Made by a program: the position numbers and the translations under genes. The notes beneath the pieces were generated by a model. It was not told the origin of the DNA. It saw nothing but the letters and a program-made list of their open reading frames with translations, and did not search any database. A DNA stretch of 17,962 bases from an uncultured Flavobacteriales bacterium (GTDB taxonomy: Bacteria > Bacteroidota > Bacteroidia > Flavobacteriales > Vicingaceae): NCBI GenBank assembly GCA_946886085.1, contig CAMPHX010000002.1:1-17962 (forward strand), in the 5' to 3' direction. Shown here one piece after another: positions 1 to 16,976 of this stretch (positions within the stretch are counted from its first letter, which is position 1; the number at the start of each line of letters is the position of its first letter).

Positions 1-64
1 AAATGAATGGCTTCGTATCAAGGCTTGTGAATCCCCGCCTGCGCCAAGCCGCCAAACGTTAGGC
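1..64 (+). other. attC recombination site, right-hand part only (left window edge)
   Basis: This is the 3' half of an integron attC site whose 5' half lies outside the window. The right arm ends GCGCCAAGCCGCCAAACG followed by the core GTTAGGC (58-64), with the predicted crossover between G58 and T59. It resembles the end of the attC at 13170-13303 (CGCCAAGCTGCGAAACG, then GTTATGG). It closes the cassette to the left of the window and marks the start of cassette 1. R'' is not visible, so pairing of this site cannot be tested here. Confidence 0.7.
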
Positions 65-89
65 AACATGCTAAAAAAGCCAACGCACA

Positions 90-151
90 TTCAAGCACAT
101 TTGGTTTTTGCCGACACGCAAAGCCCAAACAAAAAAACAAAAGAGCTTGAA
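90..151 (+). repeat. Structured hairpin repeat, copy A
   Basis: Outer stem TTCAAGC (90-96) pairs with GCTTGAA (145-151). ACA (97-99) faces AGA (142-144) in an internal loop. The inner stem TTTGGTTTTTG (100-110) pairs imperfectly with the A-rich strand 130-141. The terminal loop contains CCGACACGCAAAGCC. It is one of four copies in the window with the same ACA/AGA loop and similar loop sequence but different stems. It lies between the left attC and the cassette 1 promoter, and overlaps the edge of the possible -33 region. Its function is unknown; insulating the promoter from upstream read-through is one possibility. Confidence 0.7.
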
Positions 152-152
152 T

Positions 153-186
153 TTTGCCAACGCTCGAAGAAAGAATCGTAACTTTG
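153..186 (+). promoter_or_regulatory. Bacteroidota-type promoter for cassette 1
   Basis: TAACTTTG at 179-186 matches the TAnnTTTG -7 consensus. TTTG at 153-156 lies 22 bases upstream, inside the range reported for Bacteroidota -33 boxes. Transcription would begin around 190-193, leaving only a few bases before the ATG at 199, so the message would be nearly leaderless. Confidence 0.55.
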
Positions 187-198
187 AAAAAAAGAAAA

Positions 199-1821
199 AT
201 GCAGACGACATTATTTGAAAATATAATTAAACAAGACCAGTCAAAGAAAGAGATTTCTCATAAAGCAGAATCCTACAAAGGACTTTATGCAATGCACAAA
301 TATTGGGGAAAGAAGCCTTTCAATATTATGGCTGACTTTATTAAAAAATATACTTCCCCTAATGATATAGTGCTTGACCCATTTTGTGGTTCAGGAGTTA
401 GTGTGTCAGAAGCTGTATTCAATGGAAGAAAAGGAGTAGGAATAGACATCAACCCCAGCTCTATTTTAATAACAAAAAATGTTATTCAAACTGTTGACAC
501 AAAGCTTGTTTTAAGCGAATTCAATAAAATTGAAGCGAAAGTAAAGGATAAAATACAAGAACTCTATTTAGTTGAAAGAAATGGTCAAAAGTATGAAGGT
601 CAAAACTATTTATGGGAAAATGGAGAGCTAACTGAAATTAGATATTCAAACGGTACAAGAAAAAGGTATTCAGATGTTCCCAATCAACTAGATATTGATA
701 AAGCTAAAGAAATAAGCTACGATAATATTAATACCTTTTTCCCAAAAGAGAACTTTTTCCACAATTCTAGAATCAATGCTAACAGAGAAAATAAAACTTC
801 CGACCTCTTTACACCAAGAAATTTACTTGCTCTTTCATTGATATATAAAGAAATTGATAGCATTTCAAACATTCAAGTTAAAGACTTTTTCAAGTTTTGT
901 TTTACGGCATCTATGGGGCAAGCAAGCAAAATGGTTTTTGTCATTAAGAGACGTAATAAAACAAAAGAAAATGGTTCGACTAAAATATCAGAGAAAAAAG
1001 AAATAGGAAGTTGGGTTATAGGCTATTGGATGCCAAAAGATTATTTTGAAAACAATGCTTGGACTTGCTTCGAAAACAGGTTTAAAAAAATCTATAAAGC
1101 TAAAAAGGAGCAAGGTAAATTGAGCCAAAATCATCAAGAAGGAAAAAGTTTTGAAGCTCTCGACAAAACAGATTTTCTTTTGGTTAAGAGTCCGTCACAA
1201 GACTACCTAAAATCACTACCTGATAATTCGATTGACTATATTTTAACTGACCCACCACACGGCAACAGAATACCGTATCTTGAATTGAGCTTACTTTGGA
1301 ATAGTTGGTTGAAAGAGAATGCTGATTTTGAAAAGGAAATTATAATTAGCGAATCAAAAGACAGAAAGAAGGATAAATACGATTACAATAATTTAATGTA
1401 TGCAGTTTTCCAAGAGTGCTTTAGAGTGTTAAAGCCTGAGAAAAAACTATCGTTTATGTTCAACAGCCTTGATGATGATGCTTGGATAAGTTCAGTTGAG
1501 ATGTTTAGAAGTATTGGCTATAAATTGGAACTTATAGAAACTCTTGGCTATTCTGCCAACTCTGTTGTTCAAGATAATAGAAAAAATGGCTTGCAAACCG
1601 ACTTCATTATAACTTACTCTAAGCCTCTGCATCCTATTAGTACTGATAGGTTAGAAATAATAAGATTTTTGGAATACCCTGAACTTGTAATAAAAATATC
1701 TGAACTAAAGGAAAAGGGCTATAAATCCTATCAAATTATGAATCATATAATGAAGGAGCTATTGTCTCAAGATAAATTTTTAAATGTTACAGAACTCATA
1801 AAAGAAATAGATAATGCCTAA
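199..1821 (+). CDS. Site-specific DNA methyltransferase (N6-adenine or N4-cytosine class)
   Basis: Predicted S-adenosylmethionine-dependent DNA methyltransferase of 540 residues, the modification half of a restriction-modification pair. Motif I is DPFCGSG at residues 60-66 (AdoMet binding), preceded by MHKYWGKKP (32-40), a segment I associate with DNA methylases of this type. Motif IV is TDPPHGN, with DPPH at 351-354, the amino-methyltransferase catalytic tetrapeptide with His in the fourth place. Motif I comes well before motif IV, and the roughly 280 residues between them probably hold target recognition. The reading frame stays open upstream to a TTG at 154, but ATG 199 is preferred because it gives the common MQTTLF-type N terminus and sits just downstream of the TAACTTTG box. 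It overlaps the next gene by 8 bases, implying translational coupling. Target sequence is unknown. Confidence 0.85.
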   Translation: MQTTLFENIIKQDQSKKEISHKAESYKGLYAMHKYWGKKPFNIMADFIKKYTSPNDIVLDPFCGSGVSVSEAVFNGRKGVGIDINPSSILITKNVIQTVDTKLVLSEFNKIEAKVKDKIQELYLVERNGQKYEGQNYLWENGELTEIRYSNGTRKRYSDVPNQLDIDKAKEISYDNINTFFPKENFFHNSRINANRENKTSDLFTPRNLLALSLIYKEIDSISNIQVKDFFKFCFTASMGQASKMVFVIKRRNKTKENGSTKISEKKEIGSWVIGYWMPKDYFENNAWTCFENRFKKIYKAKKEQGKLSQNHQEGKSFEALDKTDFLLVKSPSQDYLKSLPDNSIDYILTDPPHGNRIPYLELSLLWNSWLKENADFEKEIIISESKDRKKDKYDYNNLMYAVFQECFRVLKPEKKLSFMFNSLDDDAWISSVEMFRSIGYKLELIETLGYSANSVVQDNRKNGLQTDFIITYSKPLHPISTDRLEIIRFLEYPELVIKISELKEKGYKSYQIMNHIMKELLSQDKFLNVTELIKEIDNA

Positions 1822-2932
1822 AAATTTTGAATATTGGAAAAAGCAACACGACAGTGAAGAGCTTAAAGAATTTAACTCTGATAGACTTGGCACACTTTGG
1901 TTAAAAGTTAAGTCTATAGTTCGCAGGGAATATATAAATCAATTCTGTCAAGTCAATGATATTGAACTTGAGAACACAAGATTAAATGCTCAATTTAAAG
2001 AATTGTATCACATTCTTTCTGAGAATGTTGATGAATCTCACGAGTTACTTAACAATTTCATTTCCAATCAAAATACTTCTGAATTAGACGAGCTTGACAC
2101 CGACAGCCTAGTTCAAGAACTATATAAGGTTGAAACATTTAAGTGGGGTGCTGACAATCAAAACGACTTGGGCAAGTATCTTGTCAAAAAGTACATAAAA
2201 GATAATACCTCTTATGATTATCTTATTGAACAAATGGAAACAGGAGTTCTTGGAACTGTTCAGGACTACCTTGTTTGTAGTTGGTACAACCATTGGTCAA
2301 GCATCTTAATAGAACACTTATTCAAATCTCACGAAGTAGTTTTACCAACTGTAGGACAAATAAAAAGTGTCGATTTCTTTATGAACGAGATTCCATTTGA
2401 CCTTAAAGTAACATATCTACCAACAAATTTTATTGAATTTGAAAGAAAACAGGCTGACCTACGACCTGAATTGACAACACTTAAGCAAGCTGCAAGGGCT
2501 GCGGATATTAAATTCAATAATGATGATTCAAATCTTTACTACTCTTTAACCGAACGATTGAAAGACAAGGGTGGTCAAGCAGCACAGGCAGTTGCTGAAA
2601 TAAGACAATTTAGATTGGACTTGATAGATAGAGTTAAGGCTGACCCGTTACTATTAGCCCGTAATCTTTATGAAAACCAGAGTGATTTTAGATTCGGTGC
2701 TGAAAACAGAATTTTTCTTATCCTAATCGACAGAACAGATTTTGACCAATCTTGGAAATTGAAAAGGAATGTAGATTTATTGGAACCTGCAATACACTCA
2801 TACCTTGACACTTTTGAGCAAAAATCAACCAATGATTTGAAACTTGAATTTTACAAACAAGGTGATTCTGCAAGATTTCCTAAAAAATACGAAGTTTTGA
2901 CTGATGTAATTATAGTAGAACGAGATAACTAA
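1814..2932 (+). CDS. Putative restriction endonuclease, PD-(D/E)XK-like, partner of the methyltransferase
   Basis: A protein of 372 residues that I do not recognise by name. Its ATG lies inside the last codons of the methyltransferase gene (8-base overlap), the usual arrangement of a coupled modification-restriction pair. The segment VDFFMNEIPFDLKVT carries D187, then D196-L-K198 on consecutive predicted strands, which fits the D...(D/E)xK active site of PD-(D/E)XK nucleases. The rest is mixed helical sequence with no signal peptide or membrane segment. The role as cognate nuclease rests on position plus this motif. A Type IIG or single-chain arrangement is unlikely, since the methyltransferase is a separate chain. 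The hairpin at 2951-3009 follows closely and may end the transcript. Confidence 0.65.
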   Translation: MPKNFEYWKKQHDSEELKEFNSDRLGTLWLKVKSIVRREYINQFCQVNDIELENTRLNAQFKELYHILSENVDESHELLNNFISNQNTSELDELDTDSLVQELYKVETFKWGADNQNDLGKYLVKKYIKDNTSYDYLIEQMETGVLGTVQDYLVCSWYNHWSSILIEHLFKSHEVVLPTVGQIKSVDFFMNEIPFDLKVTYLPTNFIEFERKQADLRPELTTLKQAARAADIKFNNDDSNLYYSLTERLKDKGGQAAQAVAEIRQFRLDLIDRVKADPLLLARNLYENQSDFRFGAENRIFLILIDRTDFDQSWKLKRNVDLLEPAIHSYLDTFEQKSTNDLKLEFYKQGDSARFPKKYEVLTDVIIVERDN

Positions 2933-2950
2933 ATGCCAACTCACATCACC

Positions 2951-3009
2951 CATACACATTGCCAAGTCACACCAGCCGACACGCAAACCAAAACTTGGCA
3001 AAGAGTATG
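2951..3009 (+). repeat. Structured hairpin repeat, copy B
   Basis: CATAC (2951-2955) pairs with GTATG (3005-3009). ACA (2956-2958) faces AGA (3002-3004). TTGCCAAGT (2959-2967) pairs perfectly with ACTTGGCAA (2993-3001). The loop holds CCGACACGCAAACC. The outer stem differs from copies A, C and D (CATAC instead of CAAGC), yet the opposite arm changes to match. It begins 18 bases after the putative restriction gene, so it could act as a terminator, although no U-tract follows. Confidence 0.75.
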
Positions 3010-3045
3010 TCTGTCCTACCGCACGGACGAAAAAGAAACAACGAA

Positions 3046-3177
3046 GGCACAACATTGTATAAGAGCAATAGCGGGTGTAGTGGTAAAATCAAGGTCTGTG
3101 CATTTAAGAAACTTTGGTGGTAGCGGACAGGTAATCGCCTTGAAATCCGCTACTGCTCTTATACTTGACCGTTGGGG
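3046..3177 (+). other. attC site of cassette 1
   Basis: R'' region GGCACAAC (3046-3053). The 5' stem TATAAGAGCAATAGCGG pairs with CCGCTACTGCTCTTATA apart from one mismatch. The site ends CTTGACCG followed by the core GTTGGGG (3171-3177). The interior holds GGTAAAAT at 3082 and GCGGACAGG at 3123-3131, both shared with the attC at 16841-16976. Length is about 132 bp. R'' does not complement the left end of cassette 1. Confidence 0.75.
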
Positions 3178-3198
3178 TGCATTCAAAAAAAGACGACA

Positions 3199-4134
3199 AT
3201 GGAAACAGACATAAAAAACAATCTGCTTGACCGCTTTGGGACAATTCCAAACGAGCAAGGACAAAAAAAGAGAATAAGAATTCATCAGGGTTGGTGGAGA
3301 ATGAACATACTCAACGAGAGACCTGGACAACATCCAAAAAATTCCAACGACAATGTTTGCAATACAATTCTAAATGGTGAGCAGACCAAAAAGAATTTCT
3401 TAACAGAAAACTCAAGCAAAGCCGTTGACCTGACACTGCAAGAAAGACAAGATGAAGACGCTGGGCTAATGGAGCAAGACAGACTTTTCAACAACCTTCT
3501 ATCAAGTCAACCGCTTTGCTTCAACTTTTTCGGAGAGTTAATGGCAGACACAGACTTTGGACTACGGGTGTTGCAAACTTGGTGGCCAGACTTGACAGAA
3601 TTAAAAAGAGTAATCTTCGAGTTCGCACCAAAGGAACGTTTCACGAATGATAACTCTGCCTTTGACATTGCATTTGAGGTTGCTGTAGGAAACAAATCAG
3701 GACTTATCGGACTTGAATGTAAGTACACCGACACATTTTCTTCAACCGAATATGACAAGCCTGCTTACAAGGATATTTTTGAGAAATCAATCTCCTTTTC
3801 CGCCAATTACGATAGCCTTAAAACCAGTAAGTACAATCAGCTTTTTCGCAACCAACTTATTGCAGAGGGTTTAATCCAAAACAACAAATATGACTTTGTG
3901 CGGACTGGACTGTTTTGCTATGAGCAAGATAGCAGTGCCATTGAAACAGGTCAAGAACTTCAACAAATGCTGACCAAGCCCGACAGTTTCCAAATTATCA
4001 CGTATCGCAACTTCATAGAAAATGTGCAGCGACTTGACCTTGAATGGTCAAAAAGAGAATGGACAATGTTGCTTTGGGCAAGATATTGTGGTACGATATT
4101 GAGCGAACCCGTTTTTCAAGAACTCCAAAATTAA
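3199..4134 (+). CDS. PD-(D/E)XK nuclease resembling the PGN_0703-type putative restriction endonucleases
   Basis: A protein of 311 residues. The segment LLSSQPLCFNFFGEL (about 100-114) and the surrounding order of conserved blocks resemble the PGN_0703-like restriction endonuclease family; this is from memory, not a search. The catalytic core is visible as FD at 155-156 (AFDIAFEV), then GLECKYTD with E173 and K175, a clean D...ExK site. The N-terminal third is polar and basic. ATG 3199 is chosen over the in-frame TTG at 3172 because 3172 is the first base of the cassette and TTG starts are rarer. No methyltransferase accompanies it in this cassette, so it may act on phage DNA by another self/non-self rule, or on modified DNA. 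Confidence is high for the nuclease fold and moderate for the family name. Confidence 0.7.
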   Translation: METDIKNNLLDRFGTIPNEQGQKKRIRIHQGWWRMNILNERPGQHPKNSNDNVCNTILNGEQTKKNFLTENSSKAVDLTLQERQDEDAGLMEQDRLFNNLLSSQPLCFNFFGELMADTDFGLRVLQTWWPDLTELKRVIFEFAPKERFTNDNSAFDIAFEVAVGNKSGLIGLECKYTDTFSSTEYDKPAYKDIFEKSISFSANYDSLKTSKYNQLFRNQLIAEGLIQNNKYDFVRTGLFCYEQDSSAIETGQELQQMLTKPDSFQIITYRNFIENVQRLDLEWSKREWTMLLWARYCGTILSEPVFQELQN

Positions 4135-4136
4135 GC

Positions 4137-5255
4137 GTGTTGCATTCGGCTAATCAAAATAATGACACTCGATTTTTCAAACTTGCCCTTGAACTTGAAA
4201 AACAATTCCAAAACGAGTTGATAGAGAATGAAATTCATTTCAGAGCAAGTCTAAACTCCCTTTCCCTCATTTCAGTTGGTGCAGACAAACCAGAACTGGG
4301 TGTTCCATGCAAAAATCACAACCCATGGACAAGAGACATTCTACGCACCTACATTAAGAAGATTCAAAGCAAATCCATCCCGAAACGACCAACACCTGAA
4401 AAGTCACTGCAAGCATGGATTATTAAAGAAGCTCAAGCAAATGACCACAAATTACCCTTTGACAATTCCATCAAATTCATTACATCAGAACTTGCTATTC
4501 ACAACAGCAACGGAACCAAAATCGTATCGGACATTATCGGCTATGACACGGCCACAAATAAACTGGTCATAATCGAATTGAAATCGGACAGGCTTCTCAA
4601 AAGACTAATAGAGCAAGTTGACAGTTTTGAGGAAATAATCCATGACAACTTTTGGTTCTTTCACGACCTTGTAACGCTTCATGGCTTTGGAAAATTGGAG
4701 GAGGTTTCAAGGAAAGCAATCGTTTGGCCACACGAGCGAACATCGCCATTAGTAAAGCTAAAGGACTTGGATATTGCCGAATATACTTATCAGGAGAATG
4801 GCAACAGTTACAGCTTCATTGACCATTCTAAAAACAACACACACCGTTTTGCCCATTTGACCAAGTTTGACATTGAGGCTGACTTTGTAACATTCAGGGA
4901 ACAAATAGTAGAGGAATATGGTGAGCAAAACCTTGAACAAACAATCTTGTTTTTTGAAAGAGCAGTTGCCCAAGCAAATAAGAAACTATTGCACAGTGCC
5001 ATTGCAGACGCTCAAACAGCTTACACATTTTCTCAATTCAATTACGAGTATCGTATCGTTTATTTAATAGGCTTTCTATCACAATTGCACATTGACACGG
5101 AGGACTTTAGAAAAGCACGGGCGTACTGTGAACTTGGATACAAAATGCTTGACCCTGACGATACAGACTATGCTGACGATAAAGCGAAATTTGACGAACT
5201 AAAGGAAATAATTGACAGCGAAAGTTGGAAAGACGACAGAAATAAAAATGAATAA
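4137..5255 (+). CDS. PD-(D/E)XK-like nuclease with C-terminal TPR-like helical region
   Basis: An unnamed protein of about 372 residues from the start chosen here. The segment SDIIGYDTATNKLVIIELKSD carries an Asp (residue 132) and E147-L-K149, the D...ExK pattern of the nuclease superfamily, as in other small endonucleases that act on DNA ends or foreign DNA. The last 100 residues are helical with repeat-like spacing (alanine- and aromatic-rich helices ending in a DELKEII stretch), suggesting TPR-like protein-binding repeats. The start is uncertain. The frame stays open back to ATG 4044, but that would overlap the preceding gene by 91 bases, and that gene's C-terminal segment MLLWARYCGTILSEPVF looks genuine. 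GTG 4137, three bases after that gene's stop, or TTG 4140, is preferred. It may form a two-component system with its neighbour. Confidence 0.6.
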   Translation: MLHSANQNNDTRFFKLALELEKQFQNELIENEIHFRASLNSLSLISVGADKPELGVPCKNHNPWTRDILRTYIKKIQSKSIPKRPTPEKSLQAWIIKEAQANDHKLPFDNSIKFITSELAIHNSNGTKIVSDIIGYDTATNKLVIIELKSDRLLKRLIEQVDSFEEIIHDNFWFFHDLVTLHGFGKLEEVSRKAIVWPHERTSPLVKLKDLDIAEYTYQENGNSYSFIDHSKNNTHRFAHLTKFDIEADFVTFREQIVEEYGEQNLEQTILFFERAVAQANKKLLHSAIADAQTAYTFSQFNYEYRIVYLIGFLSQLHIDTEDFRKARAYCELGYKMLDPDDTDYADDKAKFDELKEIIDSESWKDDRNKNE

Positions 5256-5268
5256 AAATAAGAAGAAC

Positions 5269-5403
5269 GCACCCCAACAAAGGCTAAGAAAACATGCGGG
5301 CTGTCACGGTAAAATGAACATTACAACACATAATAAAACCCAGTACTCGGCTGACAAATACGTGTTCCAAAACCCGCACGTTTCTTAGCCAGGGCCGTTA
5401 TAA
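5269..5403 (+). other. attC site of cassette 2
   Basis: R'' GCACCCCAAC (5269-5278) matches the start of its own cassette. The long stem GGCTAAGAAA-ACA-TGCGGG pairs with CCCGCA-CG-TTTCTTAGCC, leaving an ACA/CG internal bulge. It ends AGGGCCG followed by the core GTTATAA (5397-5403). The interior has GGTAAAAT at 5308. Length is about 135 bp. The same stem design occurs at 16841-16976. Confidence 0.85.
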
Positions 5404-5543
5404 GCAAGCCTAAAAGACGACCGTGCAACTACAAACAGACGACTGAAAACAAGAAAAAGTAAACCATTTTGACAGGTGACCAAAGACAGAGAAACGATAT
5501 TACAAGCGGACAGATATTAATCCGACACGCTGACCGACCCTCT

Positions 5544-5587
5544 GTTTTTTATTTTTTTCCCACCGCTCATTTTTTAAAAACAATTTT
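5544..5587 (+). repeat. Left inverted block of cassette 3
   Basis: GTTTTTTATTTTTTT (5544-5558) and ATTTTTTAAAAACAATTTT (5569-5587) are exact reverse complements of two blocks in the same mirrored order at 13077-13091 and 13045-13063. The short spacers differ (10 versus 13 bases). Farther out, GTAAACCAT (5459-5467) mirrors ATGGTTTAC (13139-13147). The stretch 5404-5543 otherwise shows no gene. Confidence 0.7.
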
Positions 5588-5602
5588 AACCAGCCGCACG
5601 GT

Positions 5603-5660
5603 CAAGCACATTTGGTTTTTTCCGACACACAATCCAACGCCAAAAAACCAAAAGAGCTTG
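5603..5660 (+). repeat. Structured hairpin repeat, copy C
   Basis: CAAGC (5603-5607) pairs with GCTTG (5656-5660). ACA (5608-5610) faces AGA (5653-5655). TTTGGTTTTTT (5611-5621) pairs perfectly with AAAAAACCAAA (5642-5652). The loop holds CCGACACACAATCC. It lies about 60 bases before the promoter of the Type I operon, the same place copy A has relative to the cassette 1 promoter. Confidence 0.75.
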
Positions 5661-5719
5661 CCCTTACCCACCCACGACAATATAGTGGACTTTTACACTA
5701 TTCGACAATGTATTTTTAC

Positions 5720-5727
5720 TATCTTTG
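5720..5727 (+). promoter_or_regulatory. -7 promoter box of the Type I restriction operon
   Basis: TATCTTTG matches the Bacteroidota TAnnTTTG element, 27 bases before the XRE start codon. I do not see a well-spaced TTTG or TTG -33 box. The promoter may therefore be weak or regulated, for instance by the XRE protein encoded immediately downstream. Confidence 0.5.
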
Positions 5728-5754
5728 ACCCGACAAAATTTAATAAGGCTTCAA

Positions 5755-5943
5755 ATGAACAGAATTAAAGAAGTTCTGAAAGAAAAAGGCATCTCGCAAA
5801 CTTGGCTTGCCCAGAAACTGGACAAAAGCTATAACACGATAAACGAGTATTCTCGAAATGTGAGACAACCGAGCCTTGAAGATTTGTACCGAATTGCAAA
5901 AATTTTGGACGTTAACGCCAAAGATTTATTGAAAGAAGAATGA
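5755..5943 (+). CDS. Small XRE/Cro-C1 family helix-turn-helix regulator
   Basis: A 62-residue protein made almost entirely of one HTH domain. Helix 2 and the recognition helix are ISQTWLAQKLDKSYNTINEY (about 14-33), followed by the typical RQPSLEDLYRIAKILDV segment (about 38-54). It is about the size of the controller (C) proteins of restriction-modification systems. ATG 5755 is preferred over the earlier in-frame ATG at 5725 because 5725 overlaps the -7 box and adds residues unlike the family. The stop overlaps the hsdR start by four bases (ATGA), so the two genes are translationally coupled. The likely job is to adjust operon expression so that restriction does not outrun methylation in a new host; that is inferred from size, domain and position. 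Confidence 0.8.
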   Translation: MNRIKEVLKEKGISQTWLAQKLDKSYNTINEYSRNVRQPSLEDLYRIAKILDVNAKDLLKEE

Positions 5944-8936: not shown

Positions 8937-10179
8937 GAAGAATAAACGAATACCCGAATTGCGTTTTCCTGAGTTTAAGAATGAGGGAGAATGGGAAATA
9001 AAAACTATAGGAGACGTAGCAAACTCTGAAAGTTCAAGTATGGCTCTAAATAAACTTGACCTCAAGCCAACGGGCTATCCTGTTTATGGTGCTGATAGTA
9101 TCGTTGGTTATATTGACGAATTTCAACATAAAGATAAATATATTTCTATTGTGAAAGATGGTTCGGGAGTTGGAAGATTGAATCTATGCCAAAGCAATTC
9201 ATCTATTCTAGGCACACTAACCAGTTTAAAATCAAAAAATAAGAAACAATATGATTTAGTTTGGCTTTATTATCTATTGAACACGGTAGATTTTTCCGTT
9301 TATGTCAAAGGAGCAGGAATACCTCATATTTATTATTCTGATTTTAAAAATGAAATTGTTCCTGTACCCAACCCAAAGGAACAGCAAAAAATAGCTTCTT
9401 GCCTTGCTTCCCTAGATGATTTGATTGAATCCCACAACCAAAAGTTAGATTTACTAAAAGACCACAAAAAAGGTTTGATGCAAAATCTTTTTCCGCAAGA
9501 GGGTGAGAAAGTGCCCAACTTTCGTTTTCCTGAATTCAAAAAGGATGGAAATTGGATAAAAGAAACTGTTGGTGATATTTATGAATTTAAAGTTACAAAT
9601 TCATTTTCAAGAGAAAATTTGAATTATGAAAATGGTACGGTGAAGAATATTCACTATGGAGATATACATACAAAATTCAACACCTTATTTGATATTGCTA
9701 AAGAGGATGTACCTTTTATAAATCCAGATGTCTCCATTGAAAAAATAAGAAAGGAAAGTTATTGCAATGTTGGGGATATAGTTTTTGCAGATGCTTCTGA
9801 AGATATGAATGATGTAGGCAAGAGTATTGAAATCGTCAATTTGAGTAATGAGAAGCTGGTTTCGGGTCTACATACCTTGCTGGCAAGGCAAAAGAAAAAG
9901 AAATTGGCAATTGGTTTTGGCGGGTATTTATTCAAATCAGGCTGGGTTAGAAAACAAATACAACGAGAAGCGCAAGGAGCAAAGGTTTTAGGCATTTCAG
10001 CGACAAGGATTTCAAATGTTCAAATATTATATCCTGATAACCACAAGGAACAACAAAAAATTTCTTCGTGTCTTGCATCTTTAGATGAGCTTATCACCGA
10101 AAATACTGAGAAAATCGAGCAATTGAAGCGGCACAAAAAGGGATTGATGCAGGGTTTGTTTCCGAAAATGAATGATTAG
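8929..10179 (+). CDS. hsdS: Type I restriction enzyme S subunit (DNA specificity)
   Basis: The sequence-recognition subunit, 416 residues. It has the classic two-repeat build: a target-recognition domain (about 20-150), a central conserved helix KEQQKIASCLASLDDL... (150-190), a second target-recognition domain (about 205-370) and a C-terminal copy of the same helix (373-416). Both halves start with near-identical RFPEFK segments (12-17 and 199-204), and both helices end HKKGLMQxLFP. These define the two half-sites of a bipartite target, which cannot be read from sequence alone. It overlaps hsdR by 8 bases and ends 2 bases before prrC. The internal duplication would allow domain shuffling by recombination. 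No premature stop or inverted second hsdS copy is present in the window. Confidence 0.93.
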   Translation: MSKKNKRIPELRFPEFKNEGEWEIKTIGDVANSESSSMALNKLDLKPTGYPVYGADSIVGYIDEFQHKDKYISIVKDGSGVGRLNLCQSNSSILGTLTSLKSKNKKQYDLVWLYYLLNTVDFSVYVKGAGIPHIYYSDFKNEIVPVPNPKEQQKIASCLASLDDLIESHNQKLDLLKDHKKGLMQNLFPQEGEKVPNFRFPEFKKDGNWIKETVGDIYEFKVTNSFSRENLNYENGTVKNIHYGDIHTKFNTLFDIAKEDVPFINPDVSIEKIRKESYCNVGDIVFADASEDMNDVGKSIEIVNLSNEKLVSGLHTLLARQKKKKLAIGFGGYLFKSGWVRKQIQREAQGAKVLGISATRISNVQILYPDNHKEQQKISSCLASLDELITENTEKIEQLKRHKKGLMQGLFPKMND

Positions 10180-10181
10180 AA

Positions 10182-11309
10182 ATGAGCGGTAAAAAGAAAC
10201 TATATAAGTACAAAACATTGAAAAATGTGGCTGTAAGATTAAGGGACGATTTAAACAATCATCACTTTGTTTTGCTGTATGCCTACAATGGAACAGGCAA
10301 AACACGCCTTTCAATGGAGTTTAAGAATATCGGCAAGAAGAAAAAGAAAAACCCTGTAACTGATACACTTTATTACAATGCTTTCACAGAAGACCTTTTC
10401 CATTGGAACAATGACCTTGAGAATGATTTAGAAAGGCATCTAATTATAAATACTAAGTCTGCATTTTTTGATGGATTTAAGGAGTTGGCTTTAGATGAAA
10501 AAATTTTTGGTTATCTAGAACGTTACGCTGATTTTAATTTTGACCTTGACTTCACTAAGAAAACCATTTCATTTAAAAAACAAGTAAAAAATCTAAAATT
10601 CAAACCTGATTCTGGCGAACCTGAATATATTATGCAGTCAGATATTAAGGTTTCTAGAGGTGAGGAGAATATTTTTATTTGGTGTATTTTCCTTGTTCTA
10701 ATTGAACTTGCTATTGATGATGATGGGAATGGCCCATACAACTGGGTAAAATACATTTATATAGACGACCCAATTTCATCACTTGACGACAATAACGCCA
10801 TTGGTGTAGCAAGTGATTTAGCCAAACTTTTGAAAAAAGGAAAGGGCAAAGTTAAAGTAGTTATTTCTTCTCATCATTCATTGTTCTATAATGTGATGTA
10901 TAATGAGCTAAAGAAGATTGAACACAAAAGCCACTTTCTTCATAAAAACGGTGTAGAAGGTTACGTTTTAAGGGCTACAGATGAAACACCTTTTTTTCAC
11001 CACGTAGCAATGTTAACCGAATTGAAGAAAGTTTCTGAAAATGGACAAGTAAACACTTATCACTTTAATATGTTGAGAGCGATTTTGGAAAAAACATCTA
11101 CATTCTTTGGTTTTGATGACTTTTCAAAATGTATCAATGGTGTTGAAGATGAATTGCTTTTTTCACGTGCTTTAAACTTGCTAAGTCACGGTAAATATTC
11201 AATTTATCAGCCAGTGGAAATGAATGAAGACAACAAAGAATTGTTCAACAGAATATTAACTGCATTTTTGGGGAAATACGAATTCCAATTGCCTGAAATA
11301 TTCGCATAA
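10182..11309 (+). CDS. prrC: PrrC-type anticodon nuclease (tRNA-Lys cleaving, ABC-ATPase regulated)
   Basis: A protein of 375 residues, close to the roughly 396 of E. coli PrrC, in the same kind of locus (inside a Type I hsd operon). The N-terminal ABC-ATPase has Walker A YNGTGKT (35-41), signature-like SRGEE (158-162), Walker B and D-loop IDDPISSLDD (194-203), and an H-loop SSHH (229-232). The segment LYYNAFTEDLFHWNNDLE (63-80) closely recalls E. coli PrrC as I remember it. The C-terminal nuclease shows R299-x3-E303 (LRAILEKTSTFFGF) and H336 (LLSHGKYS), equivalent in order and spacing to the Arg320, Glu324, His356 catalytic triad. In the known system the Type I complex keeps PrrC inactive; a phage anti-restriction peptide, with nucleotide signals, releases it to cut tRNA-Lys at the anticodon and stop phage growth. 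Here it sits between hsdS and hsdM. All key residues are present, so activity is plausible. Confidence 0.88.
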   Translation: MSGKKKLYKYKTLKNVAVRLRDDLNNHHFVLLYAYNGTGKTRLSMEFKNIGKKKKKNPVTDTLYYNAFTEDLFHWNNDLENDLERHLIINTKSAFFDGFKELALDEKIFGYLERYADFNFDLDFTKKTISFKKQVKNLKFKPDSGEPEYIMQSDIKVSRGEENIFIWCIFLVLIELAIDDDGNGPYNWVKYIYIDDPISSLDDNNAIGVASDLAKLLKKGKGKVKVVISSHHSLFYNVMYNELKKIEHKSHFLHKNGVEGYVLRATDETPFFHHVAMLTELKKVSENGQVNTYHFNMLRAILEKTSTFFGFDDFSKCINGVEDELLFSRALNLLSHGKYSIYQPVEMNEDNKELFNRILTAFLGKYEFQLPEIFA

Positions 11310-11320
11310 AATAGAAGTCA

Positions 11321-12952
11321 ATGACACAAAAAGAACAAAATAAAAAATTAGGCGATACCCTTTGGGACATTGCCAATGATTTAAGAGGCGTTATGAATGC
11401 GGATGATTTCCGTGATTATATGCTTTCTTTCCTATTCCTTAGATATTTGTCCTTCAACTATGAAGAAGCTGCAAAAAAAGAATTAGGTAAAGATTATCCG
11501 CCAAGTCCTTCAAAAGATTTAAGAGCAGACTTTTTAGTACCACCGCCTTTGGAACTTTGGTACAAAAAAAATAAGGGAGATATTAATGAGTTTGAGGAAC
11601 AGATGCGGAAAAAAGTGCATTATGTTATCAAGCCAAAATTTTTGTGGAGCAACATCACTGAATTGGCACGAACTCAAAACGGAGATTTATTAGAAACACT
11701 CCAAAAAGGATTTCGATACATAGAAGATGAATCGTTTGAAAGTTCATTTAAAGGTTTGTTTTCTGAAATCAATTTGAATTCTGAAAAACTCGGTAAAACA
11801 CCTAAAGAAAGAAACGATAAACTTTGCAAGATAATAACCAAAATAGCGGAAGGCATTGCTGATTTTTCTACTGATACTGACACGCTTGGTGATGCTTACG
11901 AATATTTGATTGGAAAATTTGCAGCGGGTTCTGGAAAAAAGGCAGGTGAATTTTATACGCCCCAACAAATTTCAACGATTCTGTCAAGAATTGTTCTGTT
12001 AGATTCACAAGACCCAACAACTGGTTACAAGAACAAATTGAACAGGGTTTTGGATTTCACTTGTGGTTCCGGTTCTTTGCTCTTAAACGTAAGAACACAA
12101 CTAAAGAAAGCTAAAGGAAGTATAGGCAAAGTTTTCGGCCAAGAAAAAAATGTTACGACTTATAATCTTGCCCGAATGAATATGCTTTTGCACGGTATGA
12201 AAGATACCGAGTTTGAGATATTCCACGGTGATACGTTACTCAATCAATGGGATTTACTCAATGAAATGAATCCGAGCAAAAAAATTGAGTTTGATGCCAT
12301 TGTAGCCAATCCACCATTTAGTTTACGTTGGGAGCCAACCGACACTTTAGCAGAAGATTTTCGCTTTAAAGGATATGGTTTAGCTCCTAAGTCAGCAGCA
12401 GACTTTGCTTTTCTCTTACACGGTTTTCACTTTTTATCTAAAGAGGGAACTATGGCTATTATTCTGCCTCACGGAGTTTTATTCCGTGGCGGTGCAGAAG
12501 CACGAATCAGGGAAAAACTTTTAAAAGAAAATTATATTGACACAGTAATTGGTTTGCCATCAAACTTATTCTACTCGACAGGAATTCCTGTTTGTATTTT
12601 GGTTTTGAAAAGATGTAAAAAACAAGATGATGTTTTGTTTATTAATGCTAGTGAACAATTTGTAAAAGGAAAACGCCAGAACGAACTTTCCGAAAAGCAT
12701 CTTGACAATATCGTAGAAACTTACAAATTCAGAAATGAAAGAGAGCGTTATTCTCGTAGAGTTTCACTGGACGAAATCAAGAAGAACGACTACAATCTGA
12801 ACATTTCAAGATATGTGAGTACCTCAGAAGACGAGATACAAATTGACTTGAAAGATGTAAACGCTAAATTGACAGAAATAAATAAAAGCATAAAAGTAAA
12901 CACAGAAAAACACAACCAATATTTGAAAGAGTTAGGATTGAAACTGATTTAA
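11321..12952 (+). CDS. hsdM: Type I restriction enzyme M subunit (adenine-N6 methyltransferase)
   Basis: The methylating subunit, 543 residues, normal for HsdM. The N-terminal helical domain begins with the family's characteristic DTLWDIANDLRG segment. The catalytic domain has the GEFYTPQQI motif ahead of AdoMet motif I DFTCGSG (245-251) and the catalytic NPPF (330-333) of gamma-class N6-adenine methyltransferases. The C-terminal helices would pair with HsdS. With HsdS it forms the methylase, and with HsdR the full restriction complex. It starts 11 bases after prrC and is last in the operon, so a transcript cut short after hsdR would make restriction without methylation unless regulated. The N-terminal sequence recalls the Type IC (EcoR124I/EcoprrI-like) group, the group PrrC is known to pair with. 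Confidence 0.95.
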   Translation: MTQKEQNKKLGDTLWDIANDLRGVMNADDFRDYMLSFLFLRYLSFNYEEAAKKELGKDYPPSPSKDLRADFLVPPPLELWYKKNKGDINEFEEQMRKKVHYVIKPKFLWSNITELARTQNGDLLETLQKGFRYIEDESFESSFKGLFSEINLNSEKLGKTPKERNDKLCKIITKIAEGIADFSTDTDTLGDAYEYLIGKFAAGSGKKAGEFYTPQQISTILSRIVLLDSQDPTTGYKNKLNRVLDFTCGSGSLLLNVRTQLKKAKGSIGKVFGQEKNVTTYNLARMNMLLHGMKDTEFEIFHGDTLLNQWDLLNEMNPSKKIEFDAIVANPPFSLRWEPTDTLAEDFRFKGYGLAPKSAADFAFLLHGFHFLSKEGTMAIILPHGVLFRGGAEARIREKLLKENYIDTVIGLPSNLFYSTGIPVCILVLKRCKKQDDVLFINASEQFVKGKRQNELSEKHLDNIVETYKFRNERERYSRRVSLDEIKKNDYNLNISRYVSTSEDEIQIDLKDVNAKLTEINKSIKVNTEKHNQYLKELGLKLI

Positions 12953-12963
12953 TGCCCACGCTA

Positions 12964-13032
12964 TTTGCAAGCACATTGCCAAAGCCCCACGAGCCAACGC
13001 TCAAACCAATGCTTTGGCAAAGAGCTTGCAAA
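12964..13032 (+). repeat. Structured hairpin repeat, copy D
   Basis: This is the strongest copy. TTTGCAAGC (12964-12972) pairs with GCTTGCAAA (13024-13032). ACA (12973-12975) faces AGA (13021-13023). TTGCCAAAGC (12976-12985) pairs with GCTTTGGCAA (13011-13020). That gives 19 base pairs around one 3x3 internal loop. The loop holds CCAACGCTCAAACC. It lies 11 bases after hsdM and could end the operon transcript, but A-rich rather than T-rich DNA follows directly. Confidence 0.8.
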
Positions 13033-13044
13033 GCCAACGCAAGA

Positions 13045-13091
13045 AAAATTGTTTTTAAAAAATTTCCCGACCCTTCAAAAAAATAAAAAAC
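13045..13091 (+). repeat. Right inverted block of cassette 3
   Basis: AAAATTGTTTTTAAAAAAT (13045-13063) and AAAAAAATAAAAAAC (13077-13091) mirror the blocks at 5569-5587 and 5544-5558 exactly. The order outward is hairpin, 19-mer, 15-mer, 9-mer (ATGGTTTAC, 13139-13147), then the R box, as at the left end of the cassette. The DNA is A/T-rich, so some similarity is cheap, but two exact blocks in mirrored order are not easily dismissed. No gene is seen in 12953-13337. Confidence 0.65.
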
Positions 13092-13169
13092 GCAACGCAC
13101 AACCCGACAGAAAATGACACGGAAACTCAATACTGACAATGGTTTACAAACACTGTGGAAAGAAGGCCA

Positions 13170-13303
13170 GCTTATAACAGCAGCTTGGCAAAATGGCGGG
13201 TTCAGTGCTAAATTCAAGTTCAGTTCTTCGATTGAACTTTTGTGCAAAACTGAACATTTGTGCTTCGATTTCCGCCACTTCGCCAAGCTGCGAAACGTTA
13301 TGG
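13170..13303 (+). other. attC site of cassette 3
   Basis: R'' GCTTATAAC (13170-13178) complements the start of its own cassette at 5397-5405. The stem CAGCTTGGC-AAAA-TGGCGG pairs with CCGCCA-CTTC-GCCAAGCTG around a four-base mismatch. It ends GCGAAACG followed by the core GTTATGG (13297-13303). An extra hairpin AAGTTCA...TGAACTT sits in the loop. Length is about 134 bp. Confidence 0.85.
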
Positions 13304-13337
13304 GCAACCTTAAAGAACCGACAGCATAAGAGAAAAA

Positions 13338-14069
13338 ATGATTGAAACAGAAATTGAATACAACCTTTCAGCTTATGTTGACCGAATTGAAAAGGACATT
13401 GAATTTGGCAATTTCAGGACGACCAAAACAGAAGACTTTTTTCTTCGAGTGTTTAGTGTCGCTTACAACTTGAAAAATCTTGAGAATCTAGCTTACGACA
13501 AGATAAATACCATTGCAATTGACTTGATTGACAGAAATAGTAACCTTGGTATTCAAGTAACAGCACAAAAATCAAACGAAAAGACTAAAATTGACGACAC
13601 TATAAACGACACAATTTCTGAATGGAAAAAAGAAGATGTTAAAACACTTTGGGTTTTCTTCATAACAGAAACACCATACATCAAAAAGAATATTGACACG
13701 ACAAAGTTGTATCTTGAAAAAGATGGCATTAAAGTATATATTAAGACTGTAAGAAGGCTAATAGGAGACATAAACAAACGTTCAGTTGACGAAAGAAATA
13801 GAATTGACGAACTCCTAAAACAAGAAACATCAACTGAATACAGCGGACTTTCAAGATTGACCATTTTTAAAAGCCTTAATAAAGGAGACAAAATTGTAAA
13901 CGACAGATTTTTCAATTTGTCAGAAACGATTTATTACAGTAAAAATGAATTATCTACAATAAGTTTTCTTGCTAATGGATTCAAAAATGGGAAACTAAAA
14001 GAATATTGCATTCTAGGTAATCCATGTAGTGGAAAACGACTTTTGCATATTCAATCATTCAGAAAATAA
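13338..14069 (+). CDS. N-terminal part: SMEK domain up to the Walker A loop
   Basis: 243 residues, ending in out-of-frame sequence after GNPCSGK. The SMEK domain (about residues 5-160) includes TEDFFLRVF, AIDLID and GIQVTAQKS. The acidic residues followed by Q-V-T...K are reminiscent of a PD-(D/E)XK nuclease core, which is inference only. If this fragment alone is translated it could act as an isolated effector domain, because the nucleotide-binding loop is cut at the lysine. Confidence 0.55.
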   Translation: MIETEIEYNLSAYVDRIEKDIEFGNFRTTKTEDFFLRVFSVAYNLKNLENLAYDKINTIAIDLIDRNSNLGIQVTAQKSNEKTKIDDTINDTISEWKKEDVKTLWVFFITETPYIKKNIDTTKLYLEKDGIKVYIKTVRRLIGDINKRSVDERNRIDELLKQETSTEYSGLSRLTIFKSLNKGDKIVNDRFFNLSETIYYSKNELSTISFLANGFKNGKLKEYCILGNPCSGKRLLHIQSFRK

Positions 14070-14323
14070 GCAAGAGAAAAATTTTCTACCTCAATCTCTC
14101 AAATCCTTCAATATCTCCAAGTCAAGTAATCGAAGAACTCATTCAAATCTCTCACAATTATTCGTTTCTCGTTATTGACAACATTCACGAGAATATTGAA
14201 TTATATCAAACTATACGAGAACGAGTTTCAAAGCATAAATGGATAAACACTCTTTATCTTTCAAGATATTACAAAACCTATGATGAATTTGATATAGAAA
14301 ACATCTATCGGTTAATTGAAGGA

Positions 14324-16828
14324 ATGAAGTATTTTCGGATAGATACAAATGAAAACTTTGAAGAAAAGGTTTCAGGCATCATTTGGAAGAAAACAAAGTT
14401 TTTAAAAGACGCAGGAAGTTTATTAGAATGGCGGAAGGGTGACTTTGAAAAGATTCTCAAAAACATTAGCAGAAATCTGCTGAAACTTAATATTGCATTA
14501 AGAATGTGGGAATTGAAAAACTCACAAACTAATCCAATCACCTTTGATGAAATTGATTCCAACAAGATTTTAGAGCAGTTTTTTGCTGAGCATCAATTGG
14601 GTAAAATTAAAAGTGATGCTCTATATACCTATTGTTTACTATTTAAAAATGACATTCCATTTATTCCATTAAAAGGAGCTTATAACGAAAATTCATTGCT
14701 AAGAGAAAAGGGAATAGTTCTTCAATATTTTAAAAGTGACTTCTGTTTTTTTCCACATAAGGAATATGCTCAATTGATATTTGATGCTTTTAATTATATC
14801 GATAATGGCATTAGCTCAGCAAAGAGATTATCATTGATTTTAAATTACATTAACTGTTTTGACACCACAGAAAATAAAATTGGGCTTCGGTTTATTCTAT
14901 CAAAACTTCATTACTCAGAAGATAAAGAAATTTTAGGCGAAATATTGAATGAAGAAAAGGTATTTTCATTACTACAAAATGAAATTACAGATTCTGAGAC
15001 TACAGTCTCACAAGTCATAGCAACATTGAATATCCTTTATTCCCATTCAGAAAAAATGGCTAAGGAACGACTTGAGAAATACTACAATACCTTTCTTACA
15101 TTTTTCCATAATCACAAATTAAGTTTATTTCTCGAAGATCATTATTTAGCATATAGTAGATTGCTTCAAATAAGCAATTTGCTAAACGTGGAATTAAAAG
15201 ACGAGTTTGTTACAATTGTTCTTAGACCAAATGAAAGAGCAAACACAAATTCAATTGTTGAGTTAACACTCCGAGTAAGTAGAAAAAATAGAGAATCTCA
15301 AACAATTCTCCGCATACTCAACTCATTTACGTTCCCCGAATGGCTACAAATGATTGTTGAGTTACCAAGATTACCAAATTTGACAAATTCACTTTCTGAA
15401 TTAAATACATCATCAGAATCTAAGAAACTTTTAGCAGGTCTATTCAGGAACATTGATTGGGAAAAAGAATATGAAAAGGCAAAGTCTTTAAAAATCGACC
15501 AATTTGTAAAATCACTTAGAGAGATAAACCGAATTGATAATTCTATCGGGACAAATATTTCTCGCTTCTTTTTTAAAAATGCTTTAAGGGAATCTCTTTT
15601 CACTATTAAACTTAAATCAGCAAACCTTTCTGAATATGCAAAAGCACTTTCTGATTTATCTAAAATCAACTCAACCTTTGTAAAGAGTAAACTTGCTGAT
15701 GACTTGAGATCAAACATTGTATTTGAGAAATTTTCAAATGAACCTAGTATTTCTAATTTTACTGCAAGGGCACTAGAGTTAAGAAAGCACTTTGAAGATT
15801 CAAAAGCATATTTTTCGGTACTTAATAAAATCGTGTTGTATGATTCATTCATTAAGAGAATTCAAGAAGAGACAAACCTGAATTATCTTTTGATATTTAC
15901 TGAGTTTGCCGAAAAGTATCTGAATTTTGAGAAGTCAATATTGAAGTATGAAACATCAAAAGCAATTACTGATTTGATAGCTAGACTTCCCAATAAATTA
16001 GATGCTCTGAGTAATCCCAAATTCTTAAATGTTGAGAATTTAGACTCAAATTTCATTGATTCACTGAGCACGCATGAAATTGAAAAATACTTTAAAACAA
16101 ATAAGATAACATATGCAGAAGATTTGTTTAGAGTTTTATCTACAATTGACAAGGAAAAGACCATTGATAAGTTCAAAAAACTCAACAATGCTGTATTAAT
16201 ACGAGCATTTTTAAATCCTGAACTTAATTTTTGTCAAGCGATTGAGAATATTAACAAACTAAAAAACAAAGTCTACAAAGACGGAGAGCTAAATGCCAAT
16301 AGTAAAATTTCAGAAATATTTAATGATTATCTGCTCACATACACCAAAGACCACAGGCGGTATAAGCGTGTTAGCTTAAGTGATTTTTTTAAGGGCTACT
16401 ATTTTGGCTTATGTGTTGATCAATTTACGATTGAAAAGTATTGCAAAAATGATTTCGAAGGAAAATTAAAATCAAAAAATCACAAAAATTTTGAAATCGC
16501 ATCTCTATTCCAATTTGTAAGAAGGCTTTCAGAAATAGAGAACAAAAATAATGACAAAAGCCTTTTAGAGTTTTTGGAATTAAATACTAACAACTTTATA
16601 GAAACGATAAAAAATGAACAAATAACAAAAACACTTTCAGGTTTATGTGAGCTTGCTTTAACTGACTTTGATGATTTTGCTGACGAACTACTATTTAAAA
16701 GCCGGAAATGGGTTATTAAAAAAGTTAAACAAAGAAAGCATCAAAAAATTTACAAAGTAAAACTATTGCCTGACTTAGAAAAAATAGCGAAGGATAAGGG
16801 GAGAGTAGTATTAAGAGAACTAAATTAA
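14324..16828 (+). CDS. C-terminal part: helical sensor region of the SMEK NTPase
   Basis: 834 residues from the first ATG in the restored frame; the frame itself is open back through 14036, so this start is simply the first available one. It lacks both Walker motifs, is rich in Lys, Asn, Leu and Ile helices, and carries no signal or membrane segment. Such long helical C termini in STAND proteins usually sense a ligand or phage protein, but no specific repeat family is recognisable. It is unlikely to be an independent gene, as no promoter or start signal is seen before 14324. Confidence 0.5.
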   Translation: MKYFRIDTNENFEEKVSGIIWKKTKFLKDAGSLLEWRKGDFEKILKNISRNLLKLNIALRMWELKNSQTNPITFDEIDSNKILEQFFAEHQLGKIKSDALYTYCLLFKNDIPFIPLKGAYNENSLLREKGIVLQYFKSDFCFFPHKEYAQLIFDAFNYIDNGISSAKRLSLILNYINCFDTTENKIGLRFILSKLHYSEDKEILGEILNEEKVFSLLQNEITDSETTVSQVIATLNILYSHSEKMAKERLEKYYNTFLTFFHNHKLSLFLEDHYLAYSRLLQISNLLNVELKDEFVTIVLRPNERANTNSIVELTLRVSRKNRESQTILRILNSFTFPEWLQMIVELPRLPNLTNSLSELNTSSESKKLLAGLFRNIDWEKEYEKAKSLKIDQFVKSLREINRIDNSIGTNISRFFFKNALRESLFTIKLKSANLSEYAKALSDLSKINSTFVKSKLADDLRSNIVFEKFSNEPSISNFTARALELRKHFEDSKAYFSVLNKIVLYDSFIKRIQEETNLNYLLIFTEFAEKYLNFEKSILKYETSKAITDLIARLPNKLDALSNPKFLNVENLDSNFIDSLSTHEIEKYFKTNKITYAEDLFRVLSTIDKEKTIDKFKKLNNAVLIRAFLNPELNFCQAIENINKLKNKVYKDGELNANSKISEIFNDYLLTYTKDHRRYKRVSLSDFFKGYYFGLCVDQFTIEKYCKNDFEGKLKSKNHKNFEIASLFQFVRRLSEIENKNNDKSLLEFLELNTNNFIETIKNEQITKTLSGLCELALTDFDDFADELLFKSRKWVIKKVKQRKHQKIYKVKLLPDLEKIAKDKGRVVLRELN

Positions 16829-16840
16829 TGAAAAAAGGCA

Positions 16841-16976
16841 GCCCATAACAGCACCTAAGAAAACATGGGGCGGAGAGTGGTAAACGCCAGGTTCGTTCTT
16901 CGTGGCTTAGTTTGTCGCGGGCGGACAGGAAAATGCTTTGAAAAGCCCCACGTTTCTTAGCTGCGAAACGTTAAAT
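16841..16976 (+). other. attC site of cassette 4 (end of the array)
   Basis: R'' GCCCATAAC (16841-16849) complements the cassette start at 13297-13305. The stem CTAAGAAA-ACA-TGGGGC pairs with GCCCCA-CG-TTTCTTAG, the same build as the attC at 5269-5403. GGTAAA at 16879 and GCGGACAGG at 16921-16929 are shared with the attC at 3046-3177. It ends GCGAAACG followed by the core GTTAAAT (16970-16976). Length is about 136 bp. Confidence 0.87.

Follow-up and report, generated by a model that had tools for sequence, protein, structure and literature searches.

Which enzyme assembles arrays of defence-type cassettes in Bacteroidota, and how can an operon of five genes travel in such an array as one cassette? 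The question is raised by a 17,962-nt stretch of DNA (the window, whose coordinates are used for all features) in which attC sites separate four cassettes of defence-type genes. Our analysis indicates that the window is probably the right end of an integron-type array on the chromosome of a Flavobacteriales-like bacterium, built, to judge from its relatives, by a tyrosine recombinase of a HARP type that lacks the IntI-specific insert, the I2 helix. More broadly, we somewhat favor the existence of a second integron class in Bacteroidota, in which an I2-less HARP recombinase acts on folded attC sites and is enabled by paired hairpins to move multi-gene defence operons of up to ~10 kb as single cassettes between orders.

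attC sites, cassette boundaries and a moved cassette

An attC covariance model (R1) was built on 13 sites from the window and its relatives. On the + strand of the window it found four complete sites and the right half of a fifth, bounding cassettes of 3.1, 2.2, 7.9 and 3.7 kb (cassettes 1 to 4; Table 1). An earlier, sequence-only reading had described five attC-like ends and four cassettes in one orientation, and proposed a covariance-model search; that search confirmed the ends, with all five sites scoring between 22 and 124 bits, values that are not independent because the four full window sites belong to the training set. The alignment of the 13 sequences contains two helices of six pairs each, and compensatory changes are present in 11 of these 12 consensus stem pairs. 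Control DNA totalling 200 kb, split evenly between E. coli K-12 and a part of a Persicobacter plasmid outside its array, gave zero matches to the model at E ≤ 1. Searches for tRNA, tmRNA and Rfam families likewise gave zero matches in the window.

Independent support for the attC sites is provided by box reciprocity, read directly from the sequence. The earlier reading had noted three cassettes of this kind; in cassettes 2, 3 and 4 the first bases are exactly reverse-complementary to the R'' box of the same cassette: GTTGGGGTGC (3171) pairs with GCACCCCAAC (ending at 5278), GTTATAAGC (5397) with GCTTATAAC (ending at 13178; reciprocity of 9 nt) and GTTATGGGC (13297) with GCCCATAAC (ending at 16849). 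Cassette 1 is the exception which that reading implied, its start in the window, GTTAGGC, being mismatched to the R'' box GCACAAC. Among the loci that we fetched, reciprocity of at least 7 nt was found in 67 of 84 neighboring attC pairs, compared to 4.1% of random pairings; it was present in 14 of 16 pairs with hairpins (described below) and 53 of 68 without. The sites thus show what defines attC in classical integrons, namely paired R''/R' boxes, a folded stem and a G^TT crossover.

Cassette 1 is also present in another array. Contig C60 of genome G001 carries window positions 76 to 3173 at 99.2% identity, ending at the GTT of attC1. G001 belongs to a different lineage, a Cytophagales family that includes Lunatibacter salilacus (G036), Mongoliibacter ruber (G120) and Persicobacter psychrovividus (G073). 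Its copy of cassette 1 starts with GTTGTGC, the exact complement of the R'' box GCACAAC; the two copies thus differ only in the leader bases before position 76. In the window these bases match leaders found elsewhere, with window positions 30 to 172 being 94% identical to G020:C95. Because both flanks differ between G001 and the window, cassette 1 moved as one unit. The near identity in the two lineages suggests a recent transfer between orders; a mis-binned contig is possible, as the G001 assembly comprises 360 contigs with 4% contamination. The expectation that cassettes would be found beside other neighbors at the G^TT positions held for cassette 1 only, and cassettes 2 to 4 were not found elsewhere as whole cassettes; relatives of the Type I operon in cassette 3 were detected at 74 to 78% over longer pieces in G018, G022 and G052. 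Together, the attC model, the reciprocity and the relocated cassette support the reading of the locus as an array of integron-type cassettes.

The recombinase at the heads of related arrays

attC matches at E ≤ 0.001 were obtained in 81 of 98 genomes of the Cytophagales family (a single match in 11 of them), and classical IntI above the cut-off in 2 of the 98, one of these a partial frame. The attC-bearing contig of G001 encodes a 370-aa tyrosine recombinase, which scores 205 bits against TIGR02249 (cut-off 265) and 219 bits against NF040815 (cut-off 220). Relatives of this protein at E 1e-50 are present in 65 of the 98 genomes and, from our reading of the table, span nearly the whole query in 49. 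We analyzed 42 recombinase loci, comprising 40 near-full-length ones picked from the 103 matches listed and two that were added. In 28 of the 36 testable loci the recombinase gene is followed by attC sites on its own strand; the 6 further loci end too soon. No attC was found upstream (within roughly 3 kb) or on the opposite strand of the recombinase gene in the 42 loci. The attI site was placed by matching the start of the first cassette to the first R'' box with 7-nt reciprocity. This start lies 45 to 126 nt past the recombinase stop in 21 of the 26 tested loci, which places attI there, beside the integrase gene.

The I2 insert is absent from all 26 aligned array-linked recombinases and present in the classical IntI of G027. 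Given this absence and the two occurrences of classical IntI in the family, we class the arrays as integron-like and not as IntI integrons. The integrase of these arrays differs from the classical IntI that the earlier reading would have led one to seek. A recombinase tree that included IntI and a Xer-type enzyme had long branches and gave no firm position for IntI. By eye, attC sites downstream on the same strand were also seen in named genomes, specifically Draconibacterium orientale, Flavobacterium aciduliphilum, Bacteroidetes UKL13-3, Algoriphagus marincola, Algoriphagus antarcticus, Membranihabitans, Labilibaculum (two loci) and Gelidibacter pelagius; in Polaribacter marinus and Gelidibacter japonicus the sites are weaker. 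The recombinase match begins after the N-terminal domain in UKL13-3 and F. aciduliphilum.

That domain, of ~90 residues, resembles HARP. A profile of 23 such domains had the HARP domain of SMARCAL1 (4o66) as its top match in the PDB, with E 0.001, and 9 of the 23 members matched Pfam HARP (PF07443) at E ≤ 1, the best at 4.1e-5. The predicted model has good local confidence in this domain, with 10-residue block means of 87 to 91 over residues 1 to 70, and a whole-model pTM of 0.49. In structure searches the recombinase core matched XerA and IntI4; a HARP chain was absent among the rows shown, these whole-model searches being dominated by the core and uninformative on the N-terminal domain.

From these sequence comparisons, we propose that a tyrosine recombinase whose N-terminal domain is HARP-like and which lacks the I2 helix would build the arrays in Bacteroidota. 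Encoded upstream of its array and in the same direction, with attI just past its stop codon, the enzyme would act at G^TT, joining the folded attC strand of an excised cassette either to attI or to a further attC. HARP in SMARCAL1 binds forked DNA and has a role in annealing, and the HARP-like domain may do the work of I2.

In G001 (L042 2860-3888) a retron-type reverse transcriptase gene lies between the integrase-like gene and the first detected attC. Contig G108:C1 contains 16 copies of a ~280-aa relative of the recombinase that has no N-terminal domain, at least 3 of them directly after an attC; these short relatives may form a mobile element of their own. A site 81% identical to attC3 is present in the Flavobacterium psychrophilum phages 6H, 2A and others (L323 3501-3627; window 13174-13300), with 9 phage records matching, and phages could be carriers of such cassettes. 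Another, 91% identical to attC3, is found on the small Flavobacterium plasmid pA5BP1 (L324 3002-3117; window 13175-13290), a second possible vehicle. In P. psychrovividus, 61 of the 62 attC matches of the genome are listed on one contig, in a 98-kb array (G073:C3:304188-402639). The array is headed by a HARP-type integrase gene whose first part looks HARP-like by eye and which spans the start of the record, and the hairpin model described below found no bracketing hairpins in this genome. The contig appears to be plasmid pPP2 (NZ_AP025294.1), so an integron of this type can ride a plasmid.

Hairpins bracketing large defence cassettes

Cassettes 1 and 3 each contain two copies of a hairpin of the form stem-GCACATT-stem-loop-stem-AAAGAG-stem, one in the leader and one in the trailer. 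Eight trailer copies make up the seed alignment, in which all 121 cells pair, with two-sided changes in 7 of 16 pairs and one-sided variation in 0. The 93 of 107 copies that fit the motif, a fit that required the ACA/AGA mismatch pattern, contain 1154 Watson-Crick, 9 G-T, 15 A-C and 31 other pairs. RNA stems usually tolerate G-U; these stems show no preference for it, and the pattern is therefore as in a DNA palindrome. The window holds four copies of the hairpin, and none of them matched Rfam at gathering or at E ≤ 1. On these two grounds the hairpin was rejected as an RNA element, a reading kept solely as a weak rival. Also rejected was a split, attC-like recombination site, since by eye the left and right copies are each self-complementary and not complementary to one another.

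The hairpin model (R2) detected copies in 54 of the 98 genomes of the Cytophagales family and gave zero matches at E ≤ 1 in the control DNA. A 23-base trailer pattern occurs in at least 119 stretches among GTDB genomes. By our reading of the titles, 72 of the 80 stretches listed are from Bacteroidota; the 8 others are from Chlorobiota (two), Neomarinimicrobiota, Caldisericales, Sphingomonadales, Oceanicaulis, Patescibacteria and a plain "bacterium". The pattern is also present in one viral contig.

A hairpin with an attC detected close by shares its strand in 57 of 57 cases within 600 nt (first set, 102 copies) and in 80 of 80 within 400 nt (second set, 115 copies). Intervals between hairpins measure 0.65 to 12.1 kb (median 6.2 kb, 43 intervals), compared to 0.2 to 4.6 kb (median 0.94 kb, 79 intervals) for attC-attC intervals without hairpins, lengths that are not a sample of all arrays because most loci were fetched by a hairpin or window DNA match. 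All open reading frames (ORFs) of at least 70 aa lie on the hairpin strand in 40 of the 43 hairpin intervals; of the remaining three, one has a 71-aa reverse ORF and two (L093, L098) have reversed cargo. The last forward ORF ends no more than 28 nt from the trailer element in 34 of the 41 intervals that have a forward ORF, and an attC follows the trailer in 42 of 68 hairpin pairs in both sets combined.

Bracketed cassettes show the same reciprocity as the others, with the start matching R'' in 33 of 42, compared to 14 of 390 mismatched pairs, and with up to 9.6 kb between the hairpins. The match is also present in 14 of 18 bracketed cassettes with no detected upstream attC; a first search for such cases, run over an unsuitable window with a strict RYYY box, had given 3 of 43 and was replaced by the redone search. 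Several loci (L048, L055, L073, L084 and others) have an exact start and no detected upstream attC, and look like lone insertions, at attI or a secondary site, or first cassettes. When hairpin-attC distances were divided at 90 nt, a cut chosen post hoc and applied to copies that are not independent, the 39 cassettes with both distances fell into 24 short-short, 15 long-long and 0 mixed combinations (Spearman 0.78). Because leader and trailer spacings are matched, the two hairpins just inside the ends of a large operon cassette would flank attC at similar distances in the excised circle. We infer that the hairpins may assist recombination, as accessory DNA sites of the recombination complex, or mark boundaries so that multi-kilobase operons can be handled, and would not be RNA elements.

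The bracketed cassettes are rich in defence-like genes. We scanned the longest protein of 29 of the 31 hairpin intervals in loci L061-L100, which were fetched by hairpin search (for L069 there is also overlap with a previous match to window DNA). PADLOC matched 24 of the 29 at 1e-10, labels that mean defence-like only, as PADLOC includes broad helicase and candidate models. The types include Type I, IIG and III restriction, ZorD, GajA, JetC, MkoA, a HamB-like helicase, AbiEii, TIR and others. Among 10 larger proteins hand-picked from the 79 hairpin-less intervals, 1 matched. For a length-matched control, only 5 ORFs of at least 500 aa were available outside arrays, and proteins of 300 to 620 aa were compared instead: 6 of 6 bracketed and 1 of 10 hairpin-less proteins match PADLOC (p 0.0009). 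The cassettes of L055 and L062 open with genes of matching size (326 aa and 1318-1319 aa, Type IIG in L062) and end in different genes, as if bracketed operons grow or swap at the trailer end.

The view that all four cargos of the window are of defence type is a fair one, with weaker or no matches for the second genes of cassettes 2 and 1, respectively (Table 1). The position of the 372-aa protein of cassette 1 suggests that it is a partner nuclease. Cassette 3 encodes HsdR, HsdM and HsdS together and is thus a Type I restriction-modification system. The SMEK gene of cassette 4 has a frameshift at window positions 14030-14070, in the P-loop region, which is either gene decay or a sequencing error. 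The best named relatives of the RluA at the right edge of the array are from Flavobacteriales/Vicingaceae metagenome-assembled genomes, the top one at 60%, in support of the Bacteroidota host that the sequence-only reading had proposed.

Table 1. Features of the window in order of position (R1, attC model; R2, hairpin model)
Feature	Position	Strand	Evidence or remark
attC0, right half only	1..64	+	crossover G^TT at 58; R1 22 bits, E 0.017; cut at 5' end
Cassette 1, hairpin-bracketed, short leader	59..3171	+	attC0 to attC1 G^TT; 99.2% copy in G001
Leader hairpin, cassette 1	84..161	+	R2 34 bits
N4/N6 DNA methyltransferase ORF (ATG at 199)	154..1821	+	PF01555 3e-16; PADLOC MTase_II 1.4e-54
372-aa protein, cassette 1	1814..2932	+	no Pfam or PADLOC match
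Trailer hairpin, cassette 1	2943..3020	+	R2 94 bits; in training set
attC1	3047..3177	+	R1 110 bits
Cassette 2, no hairpins	3172..5397	+	box reciprocity GTTGGGGTGC / GCACCCCAAC
PDDEXK_13 / REase-ARP nuclease, cassette 2	3199..4134	+	PF20796 1.9e-70; PF22558 7.7e-31
403-aa ORF, cassette 2	4044..5255	+	weak PADLOC PDC-S02 match, 0.0014
attC2	5272..5403	+	R1 82 bits
Cassette 3, 7.9 kb, hairpin-bracketed, long leader	5398..13297	+	box reciprocity, 9 nt
Leader hairpin, cassette 3	5595..5671	+	R2 37 bits
HTH_3 regulator, cassette 3	5755..5943	+	PF01381 3.5e-12
HsdR, cassette 3	5940..8936	+	PADLOC REase_I 1075 bits
HsdS, cassette 3	8929..10179	+	PF01420 2.2e-26
PrrC-like protein, cassette 3	10182..11309	+	PADLOC PrrC 446 bits
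HsdM, cassette 3	11321..12952	+	PF02384 3.3e-105
Trailer hairpin, cassette 3	12960..13039	+	R2 80 bits; in training set
attC3	13172..13303	+	R1 124 bits
Cassette 4, no hairpins	13298..16970	+	box reciprocity GTTATGGGC / GCCCATAAC
SMEK-domain protein gene, frameshifted, cassette 4	13338..16828	+	PF21941 1.5e-18 on first part; ORFs 13338-14069, 14324-16828
attC4, final attC detected ahead of chromosomal flank	16843..16976	+	R1 110 bits
RluA pseudouridine synthase, chromosomal flank	16993..17910	-	relatives in Flavobacteriales/Vicingaceae metagenome-assembled genomes

Alternative explanations and known systems

One alternative, a plain defence island whose attC-like palindromes arose by chance or belong to some other repeat, is already refuted. 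A crude palindrome scan does match inside genes as well, and was dropped for its excess of chance matches in favor of the covariance model; however, reciprocity far above chance, compensatory stems, a nearly identical relocated cassette and a model without matches in the control DNA count against it. An ordinary cluster of attC sites lacking an integron integrase (CALIN), in which a classical IntI, lost or in another strain, spread the cassettes and the HARP-type recombinase is a neighbor with some other job, is an unlikely explanation. Arrays without an integrase are a known class (in the accessible text of PMC9024848), and classical IntI does occur in the family, though far too rarely to account for attC in 81 of 98 genomes. 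The I2 helix, moreover, is held in the available part of PMC7790495 to be necessary for cassette capture, to be found in no other protein and to be the step enabling single-strand recombination. Elsewhere, again as far as the accessible text goes, IntI is selected by its extra domain (PMC2426708) and the I2 insertion is not fully conserved within an integron-like subgroup (PMC8138268). Against a CALIN stand the 28 of 36 testable loci in which the recombinase leads a downstream, same-strand attC array and the 21 of 26 with attI directly past its stop. The HARP-type recombinase as array builder has its own points to answer. The window encodes no integrase, the array platform being seen in relatives only; attC is missing from 8 of the 36 testable loci, and weak sites of 22 to 25 bits underlie 2 of the 28 positive ones (L275, L277). 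In Kriegella and Lacinutrix attC lies on the strand opposite the recombinase, a second G. japonicus locus is without attC and two named-genome contigs are too short. In addition, the recombinase has no match at 1e-40 in 2 of the 23 genomes with hairpins, and the HARP matches fall below the Pfam gathering score (17.1 bits for the first member, compared to 25).

For the hairpins, the most serious competitor, tenable if somewhat doubtful, is that they punctuate transcription, as terminators or insulators shielding an operon that has its own promoter within the array. The leader hairpin precedes the first gene, the trailer follows the last stop (by no more than 28 nt in 34 of 41 intervals) and, by eye, a T run comes after several of the leader copies. 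The displayed trailer copies, in contrast, have none (by eye), the stems lack a G-U preference, the matched attC spacing at both ends is not expected of terminators, and in L093 the cargo is reversed while the hairpins stay on the attC strand. An improbable further reading takes the hairpins as the termini of an independent transposable unit that brings defence operons into cassettes. Leader and trailer are common to unrelated cargo, and attC was not found after the trailer in 26 of 68 hairpin pairs, some for want of contig; a looser scan around 79 hairpins without attC, covering 420 nt, gained attC-like sites at only 2. Where attC was found, however, the hairpins keep its orientation and spacing, and each is self-complementary, left and right copies not being halves of one site by eye. 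Missing sites also count against a role in recombination or as boundary marks: no attC was found within 600 nt for 45 of 102 hairpins in the first set, or within 400 nt for 20 of 115 in the second, with 15 more cut by an end. Cassettes 2 and 4 and hairpin-less intervals of up to 4.6 kb also show that hairpins are unnecessary for cassettes as such.

None of the titles and abstract openings listed in our literature search, which did not extend to preprints and most subscription papers, describes an I2-less Bacteroidota integron or hairpin-bracketed cassettes. According to the IntegronFinder 2.0 report (PMC9024848), Bacteroidetes proper have a single complete integron, that of Salinibacter ruber. 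Relatives of the recombinase already carry the NCBI label "site-specific tyrosine recombinase/integron integrase". If an I2-less enzyme does run attC arrays throughout Bacteroidota, the origin of single-strand cassette recombination becomes testable by domain swaps. The hairpin-bracketed class would stretch the stated size limit for defence systems in integrons, and the 23-base pattern would provide a sequence tag for finding new multi-gene defence systems.

Sedentary chromosomal integrons were reportedly described as defence biobanks by Darracq in 2025. These too hold anti-phage genes between attC sites, according to a review (PMC12409362), whereas here a five-gene Type I restriction-modification operon occupies one cassette and, in relatives, hairpin intervals of 3.9 to 7.2 kb contain genes of the ZorD, GajA and JetC types. 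CALINs in phages are likewise attC clusters outside integrons, one of them in a Polaribacter phage with two methyltransferases; hairpin brackets are not mentioned in the available text (PMC9892861). The likeness to SMARCAL1 HARP (4o66) is one of sequence profile, at E 0.001, and concerns the domain only. XerA-type recombinases (5hxy, 4a8e; NF040815) are the best fold and sequence match of the recombinase core, but the HARP-type enzyme has an attached attC array with attI and a ~90-residue N-terminal domain. Compared to classical IntI (TIGR02249; 2a3v), it lacks the IntI insert, has the extra HARP-like N terminus and is encoded upstream in the direction of the array.

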